Positions 307 through 17,612 of a stretch of DNA of 47,702 nt are shown here, in pieces. A program made the position numbers and the translations under genes. The DNA lies in assembly GCA_903945495.1 (NCBI GenBank), contig CAJAVU010000030.1, positions 1-47,702 on the forward strand. The letters run 5' to 3'. The stretch's first letter is position 1. Each line of letters opens with the position of its first letter. This DNA is from an uncultured Flavobacteriales bacterium (GTDB lineage Bacteria > Bacteroidota > Bacteroidia > Flavobacteriales_D > Crocinitomicaceae). Under the pieces are notes generated by a model. It did not search any database. It was not told the DNA's origin and saw only the letters and a program-made list of their open reading frames with translations.

Positions 307-314
307 CAAATATA
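307..314 (-). promoter_or_regulatory. -7 promoter element (TATATTTG) of the zwf-like gene
   Basis: On the minus strand this reads TATATTTG, an exact match to the Bacteroidota -7 consensus TAnnTTTG, 32 bases before the ATG at 274. No good TTTG lies at the usual -33 distance. The putative operator at 322-338 occupies part of that place. Confidence 0.5.
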
Positions 315-321
315 CAGTCTT

Positions 322-338
322 TACGTCAAAAATACACT
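322..338 (-). promoter_or_regulatory. Putative NrtR-type operator, site A
   Basis: The minus strand reads AGTGTATTTTTGACGTA. It matches two other sites at 1153-1169 and 2098-2114 in the AGTGTA half, in two T's of the spacer and in the AC of the second half. It lies just upstream of the -7 element of the zwf-like gene. The 13 bases at 331-343 are also identical to the reverse complement of 2093-2105 before GAPDH. Binding by the neighbouring regulator is inferred. Confidence 0.5.
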
Positions 339-372
339 AAGTATGTATTTTTTTTGATTTTAAACCAAAAAA

Positions 373-1116
373 CTAAAAACCGAAATTATCAAATCCATTT
401 TCGATTAAACTATTATAGTTTAATTCATTAAACTTAAAGAATTGCGACGGTTTGTGAGGAACACCTTCTTGCTTCTCATCTAAACTTTCAACAATCTTTA
501 ATTTCAACATTTTTCTTCTAAAATTTCGCTTATCTAAGGTTCTCCCTAGGATGACTTCGTATAATCTATGAAGTTGGGATAAGGTGAATTTTTCTGGAAG
601 CAGATTGAAACCAATCGGTTGGGTTTTAATTTTATTTTTCAATTTTTTCAGTGCCGCTTGATAAATTTCAAAATGATCAAAGGCCAATTCATTAATTTCA
701 TGAACTGATACCCAACAAGCCGTTTTTGCAAATGAAGACGCTTGAGGTTGATAATCGTTCATGTTTACTAAAGAATAATAAGCTATCGTAACAACACGTT
801 CATTTGGTTTTTGCCGTACGGCCTTTAACCAAGCTTGATCGGACGCTTTGCTTAATCTATGGGGATTACCAAATGCTCCTACTTGTTCAAGGAAAATATT
901 ATATAAACCCGTTAATTCATTTAAAATTCGGTTGGCAGCCATATCCAAATCTTCATCCTCAAAAATAAGATCACCAGGCAGCGACAACGAAACATCAAAA
1001 CCTTCAACAGGCTCTCGTTCAATTAAAAGAACTTTTAATTGATTAAAATCAAAACCGAAAATCACACAGTCCGCAGAAATTCGTGGATTTAACTGATGTT
1101 TATTTTTGGATTCCAT
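373..1116 (-). CDS. NrtR-family transcriptional regulator (Nudix-like sensor plus winged helix)
   Basis: The protein has 247 residues. It starts with a Nudix-like fold (about 10-145, beginning ISADCVIFGFD and containing LPGDLIFEDEDL) and ends with a C-terminal winged helix (about 165-247) carrying FTLSQLHRLYEVILGR and LDKRNFRRKML, the hallmark of NrtR-type regulators. The Nudix box should read REUxEExGU but here is RILNELTGL: two acidic catalytic positions are replaced by I and L. This suits a domain that binds a ligand without hydrolysing it. Relatives in this phylum include the arabinose regulator AraR of Bacteroides. The ATG at 1116 is the first ATG; the longer frame would begin with TTG inside the putative operator. 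It lies between the zwf-like gene and the kinase/GAPDH genes, so a sugar-phosphate-responsive role is likely. The effector is unknown. Confidence 0.85.
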   Translation of the reverse strand: MESKNKHQLNPRISADCVIFGFDFNQLKVLLIEREPVEGFDVSLSLPGDLIFEDEDLDMAANRILNELTGLYNIFLEQVGAFGNPHRLSKASDQAWLKAVRQKPNERVVTIAYYSLVNMNDYQPQASSFAKTACWVSVHEINELAFDHFEIYQAALKKLKNKIKTQPIGFNLLPEKFTLSQLHRLYEVILGRTLDKRNFRRKMLKLKIVESLDEKQEGVPHKPSQFFKFNELNYNSLIENGFDNFGF

Positions 1117-1152
1117 AAACAAAGTTAAAAAAGAATTTTTATATATTCGCAA

Positions 1153-1169
1153 AGTGTACAATTGACACA
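1153..1169 (+). promoter_or_regulatory. Putative NrtR-type operator, site B
   Basis: It reads AGTGTACAATTGACACA, an imperfect palindrome related to sites A (322-338) and C (2098-2114). It lies in the 80-bp divergent region between the regulator (start 1116, minus) and the kinase (start 1197, plus), so it could serve autoregulation and kinase control together. Confidence 0.5.
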
Positions 1170-1196
1170 AAGAAAACTTTAATTCTTCTTAAGCAT

Positions 1197-2048
1197 ATGA
1201 TTTTAATCGTTGATAGCGGTTCAACTAAGAGTGATTGGATCCTTCTAAATAATTCTGAAAAAACACATTTTTATACAATTGGACTTAATCCATATTTCCA
1301 TGATGAGTCAACTGTATATTCGGCTATTTTCGAAAATAATGAGCTGTTTGCAATTCGAAAAGACATCAATCAAGTATACTTTTATGGTGCTGGATGCTCA
1401 TCACCTGAACTGAATCAAATAATTTCCAATGGACTTCAAAGCGTTTTTATTAACGCAGAAATACAGGTAGATCATGACTTATGTGCTTGCGCATATGCAA
1501 CGTATGAGGGTGAACCATCTATCTCTTGTATTATAGGAACAGGCTCAAATTCATGTTATTATGATGGTATAACTGTAAGCGAAGAAGTTCCTGCGCTAGG
1601 TTATGTACTTGGTGATGAGGGAAGCGGTACATATTTTGGAAAACAATTGGTTTCTAATTATTTATACCACAAGCTTCCGAAAAACATTGAAAAAGCACTT
1701 TCTTCACAACCTGAATGCTCAAAAGCAGAAATCATTGATCGTGTATACAAGCAAGAAAATGCAAATGTCTATTTAGCATCGTTTATGCACTTTATTATTG
1801 ATTTTAAAGACGAAGCCTATATTCAAGAGATGATTTACAATGGATTTAAACATTTCCTGCAAATTCACGTGTGTTGTTATCCGAATTATTTGAATGTAAA
1901 AGTTCATTTTGTTGGTTCAATCGCTCAATTATTTCAGTCCGAGCTTGAAAAAGCTTGTGGTGATTTGAATATCAAAATTGGAAGAATTATTCAAAAACCA
2001 ATTGACGGACTTGTAGATTATCATCAAAATTTATCTGCGATCGTTTAA
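1197..2048 (+). CDS. BadF/BadG-family sugar kinase (N-acetylglucosamine kinase-like)
   Basis: This 283-residue protein has the ASKHA ATPase fold of the BadF/BadG/BcrA/BcrD family. The phosphate-1 motif DSGSTKSDW is at residues 6-14, GTGSNSCYYDG is near 118, and GYVLGDEGSGTYFGK is near 138. Family members in this phylum are annotated as N-acetylglucosamine or glucosamine kinases acting in the cytoplasm. The exact sugar cannot be read from the sequence. It runs divergently from the NrtR-type regulator and is followed 116 bp later by GAPDH on the same strand. The location between a sugar-responsive regulator and glycolytic genes supports a role feeding phosphorylated sugars into central metabolism. 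Confidence 0.75.
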   Translation: MILIVDSGSTKSDWILLNNSEKTHFYTIGLNPYFHDESTVYSAIFENNELFAIRKDINQVYFYGAGCSSPELNQIISNGLQSVFINAEIQVDHDLCACAYATYEGEPSISCIIGTGSNSCYYDGITVSEEVPALGYVLGDEGSGTYFGKQLVSNYLYHKLPKNIEKALSSQPECSKAEIIDRVYKQENANVYLASFMHFIIDFKDEAYIQEMIYNGFKHFLQIHVCCYPNYLNVKVHFVGSIAQLFQSELEKACGDLNIKIGRIIQKPIDGLVDYHQNLSAIV

Positions 2049-2097
2049 TTTTTTCCAGCCTATTTTTCGTTCGAATTTATTTGGCACAAATTTACTT

Positions 2098-2114
2098 AGT
2101 GTATTATTTACACT
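2098..2114 (+). promoter_or_regulatory. Putative NrtR-type operator, site C (perfect palindrome)
   Basis: It reads AGTGTA-TTATT-TACACT, a perfect 6-5-6 inverted repeat, 51 bp before the GAPDH start and 14 bp upstream of its -7 element. It is the most symmetric of the three related sites in the first 2.2 kb. Its position over the -33 region suggests repression, which is inference. Confidence 0.55.
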
Positions 2115-2128
2115 GTGGTATTTTTTTG

Positions 2129-2136
2129 TACATTTG
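2129..2136 (+). promoter_or_regulatory. -7 promoter element (TACATTTG) of gapA
   Basis: TACATTTG fits TAnnTTTG exactly and lies 28 bases before the GAPDH ATG. The upstream -33 region lacks a clear TTTG and is covered by the palindromic site C. Confidence 0.5.
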
Positions 2137-17332: not shown

Positions 17333-17612
17333 CCAATCCTAATTTCAAACAAATTCAAAGCTATTAGACTAAGTTTTGAATTGAAATTTAGGCTGTAAAC
17401 ATGACGTTAACTTGAACTAAAACTCAACAAGAGCAAACTAAATGTCATTTTGACACTTTGAAGATTAACGTTTCCCTAATTCCGACGCGGTTGAAGGTTA
17501 TTAACAAAGCTTCGTCTTTTGTTGGAAATTTTAGACCTAAAAACCACCTCAGTCCAAATTCTTCCTTTAATTTTGCAGTTCAAAACATAGCGTTAGCTGT
17601 AAAAATGAACGT
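17333..17612. other. 280-bp intergenic region before pckA
   Basis: No gene is seen. TAATTTTG at 17568-17575 fits the -7 consensus and could drive pckA, but no TTG lies at the expected -33 distance. No terminator hairpin for elbB is recognisable. Confidence 0.5.

Follow-up and report, generated by a model that had tools for sequence, protein, structure and literature searches.

An AraR-like regulator of the NrtR family, encoded near one end of a 47,702-nucleotide stretch of DNA from an uncultured Flavobacteriales bacterium (GenBank assembly GCA_903945495.1, contig CAJAVU010000030.1; hereinafter the window), very probably controls its own gene, a sugar kinase gene, the zwf-pgl-edd-eda genes and the genes for glyceraldehyde-3-phosphate dehydrogenase (GAPDH; gap) and phosphoenolpyruvate carboxykinase (PEPCK; pckA) through four 23-bp operators. 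We propose that a dimer of the regulator would bind the palindrome CTTAGTGTCAATTTGACACTAAG and that one sensor might thereby set the catabolism of glucose and alpha-glucans against gluconeogenesis in a manner like that of HexR and RccR. What the sequence itself shows is that the operators exist, where they stand, how well they are conserved and that they depend on the presence of the regulator gene. The bacteria that share this arrangement are Bacteroidota, most of them uncultured.

The operator and its copies in the window

An earlier note on the window had described three 17-bp sites built on AGTGTA-N5: one before zwf, one between the divergent regulator and kinase genes and one before gap. 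All three lie where it placed them: the site at 2098-2114 is a perfect palindrome that matches AGTGTA-N5-TACACT throughout, the site at 1153-1169 has 2 mismatches, and the 13-bp block aatacactaagta is indeed identical between 331-343 and the reverse complement of 2093-2105. The description holds by half for the site at 322-338 on the minus strand: its left arm is good, but 4 positions differ from the pattern, which places it outside a list drawn at up to 3 mismatches. The motif behind all three sites, derived from the regulator/kinase and regulator-to-zwf regions of relatives, is a 23-bp palindrome, CTTAGTGTCAATTTGACACTAAG, with the core GTGT-N7-ACAC; the operator length of 17 bp was thus an underestimate, the full operator being about 23 bp. 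The note also missed a fourth copy, upstream of pckA.

The plain 17-bp pattern shows weak enrichment in the window (28 matches at up to 3 mismatches against 17.1 +/- 3.9 expected; 1 of 100 shuffles reached 28) and none across the genome (143 per strand at up to 2 mismatches, against 223 for the reversed control). Hence, an extended profile was used instead. With a 25-column profile from which the window and L005, its nearest relative among the fetched loci, were left out, the sites at 318, 1149, 2094 and 17437 score 19.8-27.7 and the window's next best place scores 5.6. Among 40 Markov-resampled windows the fourth-best score never exceeded 7.4 and the best single score was 17.4. A chance origin of the four sites is ruled out by these scores.

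For a scan of whole genomes, 34 sites from regulator/kinase, zwf and gap regions, none of them at pckA, were entered in both orientations (68 rows) to give R1, a profile based on sequence only. In the host genome (3.64 Mb), at an expectation value (E) of up to 10, it finds four places only, the operators O1-O4 of Table 1, all of them in the window (best E 0.009; 150 of 3039 first-look candidates scored). Three stand at zwf, the kinase gene and gap, which agrees with the shared palindromic operator proposed for these genes in the earlier note. The fourth, 15 kb away at pckA, is the genome's best R1 site and rules out a purely local regulon; the supposition that the regulon is local to GAPDH and zwf has to be given up, since pckA belongs to it in the same window and relatives add genes for pyruvate dehydrogenase (PDH) E1, starch uptake and alpha-glucan phosphorolysis. 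O1 is asymmetric, with a strong left half and a weak right half, GACGTAAAG.

Conservation and dependence on the regulator gene

We fetched 80 loci with regulator relatives. Together with the window they yield 24 regulator-to-zwf regions and 56 regulator/kinase regions that include the starts of both genes; of the latter, 53 are under 300 bp long and three measure 1.1-1.8 kb. The GTGT-N7-ACAC core is exact in 53 of the 56 regulator/kinase intergenic regions, with two more at one mismatch and one at two; in a region no longer than 300 bp an exact core has a chance probability of about 0.0013. All 24 zwf regions fall within 2 mismatches of the 8-base core, and 23 of them reach a profile score of at least 12.6 (many were training sites), the right half of the operator reading mostly GACRTAAAG. 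The conservation in orthologous upstream regions on which the earlier note had staked its proposal is therefore found.

In eight related genomes R1 gives at least 76 distinct places, of which we examined 74 (53 and a further 21 lower-scoring ones; left out were G002:C11:22361 and G008:C6:136054). Ten of the first 53 were flagged as inside a frame; by coordinates nine of these frames are upstream in-frame extensions of the target gene that reach back to an earlier start codon, and G001:C20:33290 is the one truly in-gene place. Among the 21 lower-scoring places 5 lie inside frames. Sites before zwf and between regulator and kinase occur in 8/8 relatives, most of them (or near-identical ones) being in the training set and so matching by construction; the gap sites of L005 and L019 are likewise training-derived. 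The sites at all other targets are independent of training. Those at pckA are present in six of the eight (G001, G004, G005, G006, G007 and G008). A GAPDH gene carries a site in six relatives: in G004 this is the long type only, and in G003 both types. Further sites precede a starch-type TonB receptor gene (5/8; beside SusD and a family 31 glycoside hydrolase (GH), GH31, in G003), the PDH E1 beta gene, divergent from etfB (4/8), the PDH E1 alpha gene (4/8) and the gene of a secreted protein with a sub-threshold pullulanase-X25 match.

Two side observations concern these genomes. The two GAPDH genes of G003 (C1:106205 and C20:29127) encode a type I enzyme and a longer PRK08289-type one, each with an operator. 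CotH-family genes lie downstream of an operator in 5/8 genomes (G002-G006; L121, L111, L131, L155 and L157), two of them at low scores; those of G002 and G005 are lined up with starch-type genes.

A second, more distant group comprises eight genomes with a regulator 50-56% identical, in which R1 lists 30 places, 17 of them annotated. Regulator/kinase sites occur here in five genomes and pckA sites in three (G010, G011 and G016; those of G010 and G016 were flagged inside the divergent frame), and once or twice each there are sites at GH13, TonB receptor, glutamine-synthetase-like and amino-acid-dehydrogenase-like genes, the last two named by sequence reading.

The gene at which the profile could be tried as a held-out case is pckA, absent from motif training: its 500 bp upstream were scored against the 99th percentile of resampled sequences, the carriers being our selection among genomes matched in regulator searches. 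A site above that threshold occurs in 15 of the 20 genomes that have a regulator orthologue at 55-76%, in 8 of 11 genomes of the f9 family with a 52-55% orthologue, in one of nine having only a distant paralogue (G024), and in 0/20 genomes without a regulator match (these 20 being all non-matching genomes listed by name; 23 more are unlisted). Between the 55-76% group and the no-match group the Mann-Whitney test gives 5.8e-5, uncorrected for phylogeny.

A whole-genome R1 scan at E up to 0.2, counted by genome, finds sites in 10/10 regulator carriers (one in G051, several in the others) and in 0/10 non-carriers, including the same-genus non-carrier G149; the non-carrier side has no overlap with the fetched loci. 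This bears on the explanation that the palindrome belongs to another, unseen transcription factor with the same targets: sequence analysis is unable to show which protein binds, but the split by regulator gene, the core between regulator and kinase in 53/56 regions, a core and spacing equal to those of AraR and an invariant recognition helix make such a factor very improbable. In G080 (C8:107757-112766; L274) the kinase (52%) and zwf-pgl-edd-eda genes are kept and the 211 bp between them hold neither regulator nor operator, apparently a natural loss of the regulator.

An AraR-like regulator

The regulator combines a degenerate Nudix domain with a C-terminal winged helix, and its Pfam matches above gathering scores (PF21906, of the NrtR_WHD/AraR_C set, 1.8e-26; PF19368, 1.9e-12; PF00293, NUDIX, 2e-7) agree with the NrtR type given to it in the earlier note. 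HexR and RccR are defined by an RpiR-family helix-turn-helix with a SIS domain; the Pfam search of the present protein returned NUDIX, NrtR_WHD and AraR_C only, and neither of those two domains. The closest solved structure by sequence is AraR (5bs6; phmmer 2.8e-47, against 2.7e-15 for the ADP-ribose NrtR), at 38-39% identity across the aligned region, and the AlphaFold2 (AF2) model, with a mean predicted local distance difference test score (pLDDT) of 87.5, has AraR as its top Foldseek match (7e-23).

AraR of Bacteroides thetaiotaomicron (BT0354), itself of the NrtR family, contacts GTGT through Lys179, Arg180, Asn181 and Lys184, and its crystal DNA, according to the text and contact table of the paper, has GTGT and ACAC seven bases apart (PMC4666351). 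With AraR the regulator shares the fold, the GTGT-N7-ACAC core, the recognition helix (DKRNFR in both; DKRNFRRK in 33/33 aligned regulator proteins, with Arg at the position of AraR's Lys184) and an inactive Nudix box: positions 64 and 68, normally Glu, are V/I and L in 32/33, the single exception having E at both. Of the residues with which AraR contacts its sugar, Arg34 and His131 have invariant counterparts here, Arg34 and His148. Judged by these sequence features, the regulator is an AraR-like protein of the NrtR family, and its operator has the same core and spacing as that of AraR.

It differs from AraR in the pocket, where Arg86 aligns with Gln and Tyr5 with His; in a conserved 15-residue insert with near-invariant Arg87, Asp93, Trp96 and Arg101 (31-32 of 33); and in its targets, which are those of central carbon metabolism (zwf/edd/eda, gap, kinase, pckA, PDH, starch genes and others) and not those of arabinose catabolism, the published AraR regulon serving the use of arabinose and arabinose-containing polymers (PMC4666351). 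Pocket residues and targets rule out an arabinose-responsive AraR. The extra basic residues may hint at a phosphorylated ligand. The regulator may be released from DNA, as AraR is by arabinose, through binding of a glucose-derived effector, for instance glucose itself, glucose-6-phosphate, beta-glucose-1-phosphate or another such sugar or sugar phosphate; to the glucose-derived nature of the effector we would give even chances.

A different view is that the protein is a nicotinamide adenine dinucleotide (NAD)-type NrtR, sensing ADP-ribose or NAD and tuning the dehydrogenase genes zwf, gap and PDH to the cofactor state. The NrtR of NAD metabolism (Shewanella; PDB 3gz5/3gz6) has the same domain architecture, the NCBIfam NAD-type NtrR model NF050029 matches, though at 136.9 far under its cut-off of 400, and several targets are NAD(P)-dependent dehydrogenases. 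We nevertheless consider this view improbable: the sequence is closer to the arabinose-responsive AraR by the phmmer values given above, the AraR sugar contacts have invariant counterparts, and the targets differ, including as they do a kinase, PEPCK, starch receptors and glycosidases.

Other NrtR-like proteins occur in the genomes surveyed. A paralogue of the regulator (43% identical, 233 aa) lies in its own genome (L277, G000:C26:16500-23500, and L276), among GH16/GH3 glucanase-like genes named from sequence reading; ATTGTA-N5-TACAAT palindromes stand beside it (C26:19642) and between divergent transporter-like and glycosidase-like genes (C26:9236). It is perhaps a beta-glucan regulator with a related half-site. 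L148 (G005:C139) holds an NrtR-like protein of 227 aa with an intact-looking Nudix box and GCGTAATTTTTACAC sites, adjoining a phosphoribosyl/NAD-like gene, probably a classical NAD-type NrtR in a genome that also has the present regulon.

Predicted targets, promoter positions and proposed regulatory logic

Table 1. Genes, predicted operators and predicted promoter elements of the regulon in the window (profile, score with the window and L005 left out)
Feature	Coordinates	Strand	Evidence
zwf (glucose-6-phosphate dehydrogenase), first 91 codons, cut by contig end	2..274	-	PF00479 2.3e-13; TIGR00871 4e-10, below cut-off as fragment
zwf promoter -7 element, TATATTTG	307..314	-	sequence
operator O1 (zwf)	319..342	-	R1 E 0.09; profile 22.6
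regulator, NrtR/AraR type, 247 aa, ATG at 1116	373..1116	-	Pfam, phmmer, AF2, Foldseek
regulator -7 element, TAACTTTG, 3 bp from ATG	1120..1127	-	sequence
operator O2 (common to divergent regulator and kinase genes)	1150..1172	.	R1 E 0.012
BadF-type sugar kinase, 283 aa	1197..2048	+	PF01869 1e-6, under gathering score
operator O3 (gap)	2094..2114	+	R1 E 0.035; profile 19.8
gap promoter -7 element, TACATTTG	2129..2136	+	sequence
gap, type I GAPDH, 333 aa	2165..3166	+	TIGR01534 1.7e-135, above cut-off
operator O4 (pckA)	17438..17460	+	R1 E 0.0087; profile 26.4
pckA promoter -7 element, TAATTTTG	17568..17575	+	operator centre to -7, 119 bp
pckA, ATP-type PEPCK, 537 aa	17613..19226	+	TIGR00224 9.6e-219, above cut-off

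By sequence, zwf is the first gene of zwf-pgl-edd-eda, an Entner-Doudoroff set: of the 23 fetched loci with zwf, 19 have edd after zwf and pgl (the other four end early), with Pfam and NCBIfam matches in G003, and the end of contig G000:C33 of the host genome holds pgl-edd-eda with a piece of zwf that matches from query residue 102. The balance of glycolysis against the pentose phosphate pathway suggested in the earlier note thus gives way to glucose and alpha-glucan catabolism together with the gluconeogenic step of PEPCK.

The kinase has profile matches of 1.8e-80 to 3e-71 to PDB 1zxo, 8oqw, 1zbs, 8ow9 (a putative N-acetylmuramic acid (MurNAc) kinase) and 8oqk/8ow7 (N-acetylglucosamine (GlcNAc) kinase), and matches hexokinases weakly. 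Downstream of its gene, 11 loci encode GH13, a transporter of the MFS type, a protein of the HAD family and GH65, and a twelfth locus, L015, stops short of GH65; 24 loci of the distant group have the kinase together with the HAD protein and GH65. The HAD-family protein is called beta-phosphoglucomutase from this context. Phosphorolysis by GH65 would yield beta-glucose-1-phosphate and glucose, which points to a glucokinase; the kinase is probably one despite the GlcNAc/MurNAc kinase names carried by its closest solved relatives (PMC10465942). Adjacency of gap is ruled out as a conserved feature: in only 5/80 loci (L005, L019, L022, L026 and L072; some loci end too early) are gap and the kinase no more than about 1.2 kb apart, and others carry GH13-MFS-HAD-GH65 there.

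In Bacteroidota the promoter -7 element has the consensus TANNTTTG. At zwf the operator covers the promoter, its centre lying 15-16 bp from this element in 20/24 loci (four are without TANNTTTG). At the regulator gene the distance is 33-35 bp, with TTG 9 bp from the centre, in 21 of the 53 regions under 300 bp; 18 have no -7 element and 14 have it at other distances. In the same 53 regions a TANNTTTG-type element on the kinase side was seen in none. By sequence reading, the -33 position of gap falls within the operator in both the window and L005. An operator covering the -33 region suggests repression at zwf, the regulator, the kinase and, in the window, gap. Among the 25 pckA regions that have a site, the centre-to-element distance is 117-123 bp in 19/25, 109-111 bp in 5/25 and 177 bp in 1/25, the two clusters being about one helical turn apart. 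A site so far upstream would fit activation, and we judge activation of pckA from this distal site to be a little short of an even chance. As a side observation, in the window, as in most of the 21 regions where the spacing is 33-35 bp, 3 bp separate the end of the regulator's -7 element from the ATG, which suggests that the regulator mRNA is possibly leaderless.

Context and positions together bear on a narrower explanation, by which the regulator is an ordinary repressor of local alpha-glucan/glucose uptake and phosphorylation, the gap, zwf and pckA sites being minor or purely repressive, with neither activation nor a global role. Its widest context is indeed that of regulator, kinase, HAD-family protein and GH65, starch genes carry sites in relatives, and all sites could repress. 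Yet the reported regulon of the host genome (G000) and of G001 is exactly that of regulator/kinase, gap, zwf and pckA, and GH65 has no match in either, though that search had no positive-control genome and its empty result shows nothing by itself. Moreover, two divergent groups both have pckA sites, which stand at a near-fixed distance far upstream of the -7 element. We regard this explanation as unlikely, if a serious competitor.

Against the proposed central-carbon regulon stand the following points. The pckA test fails in the carriers G137, G077, G110, G051 and G039 (5/20) and in the f9 carriers G055, G087 and G090 (3/11), and G024 carries a pckA site with a close regulator orthologue undetected. 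In the carrier scan G137, G077, G110 and G092 apparently correspond, by contig coordinates, to the assemblies that hold L078, L012, L008 and L006, the last two of which had supplied training sites, and the carrier/non-carrier contrast is uncorrected for phylogeny. The right half of the zwf operator is consistently imperfect (exact core in 3/24), and the layout of the gap promoter varies, the site of G008 being 177 bp before the gene. Activation of pckA is argued from position only; with a main spacing cluster that spans 7 bp and genomes related to one another, helical phasing is only suggestive. Finally, binding by the regulator and control of its targets are predictions from sequence.

Among known regulators, HexR of gamma-proteobacteria places glycolysis, Entner-Doudoroff genes and pckA under one regulator (PMC5507952), and RccR of Pseudomonas targets aceEF, pckA and gap, with two gene sets under opposite control (PMC5489143). 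The regulon described here would work like both, by analogy of function only; with RccR it shares the target classes (PDH, pckA and gap) and, as proposed, the opposite control of two gene sets. The protein, however, belongs to a family unrelated to the RpiR-family HexR, whose effector is 2-keto-3-deoxy-6-phosphogluconate (KDPG), and while RccR, a HexR-like protein, uses two operator types with different linkers, here one operator type occurs at different positions. Within the NrtR family, AraR and XylR are sugar-responsive members described from Bacteroidetes (PMC3878776), and the regulons described in the literature searched concern NAD synthesis, the use of L-arabinose and D-xylose and, in Pseudomonas, effects on secretion systems. 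No central-carbon NrtR regulon was found described in the titles and abstract openings of open-licence literature; RegPrecise lay outside that search. Cra/FruR, of the LacI family, and CggR, of the SorC family, govern glycolysis and gluconeogenesis by a comparable control logic from other protein families.

We tentatively extend the regulon to a wider proposal, which we hold to be possible with the balance somewhat against it: in some Bacteroidota a Nudix-derived sensor may have become the master regulator of carbon flow through central metabolism. It would read a glucose-derived phosphorylated metabolite, repress Entner-Doudoroff/lower glycolysis, kinase and starch uptake genes via the -33 region and activate PEPCK from a distal site near one helix face, having grown out of a regulator of alpha-glucan phosphorolysis. 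The regulon offers defined operators, AraR as a structural template, genomes with natural deletions and, at pckA, a rule of position open to direct test. If true, the regulator would be a candidate master switch with which Flavobacteriales-type bacteria could change between using sugars and gluconeogenesis, and the master-regulator proposal, if it holds, would represent another independent origin of the Cra/HexR logic.

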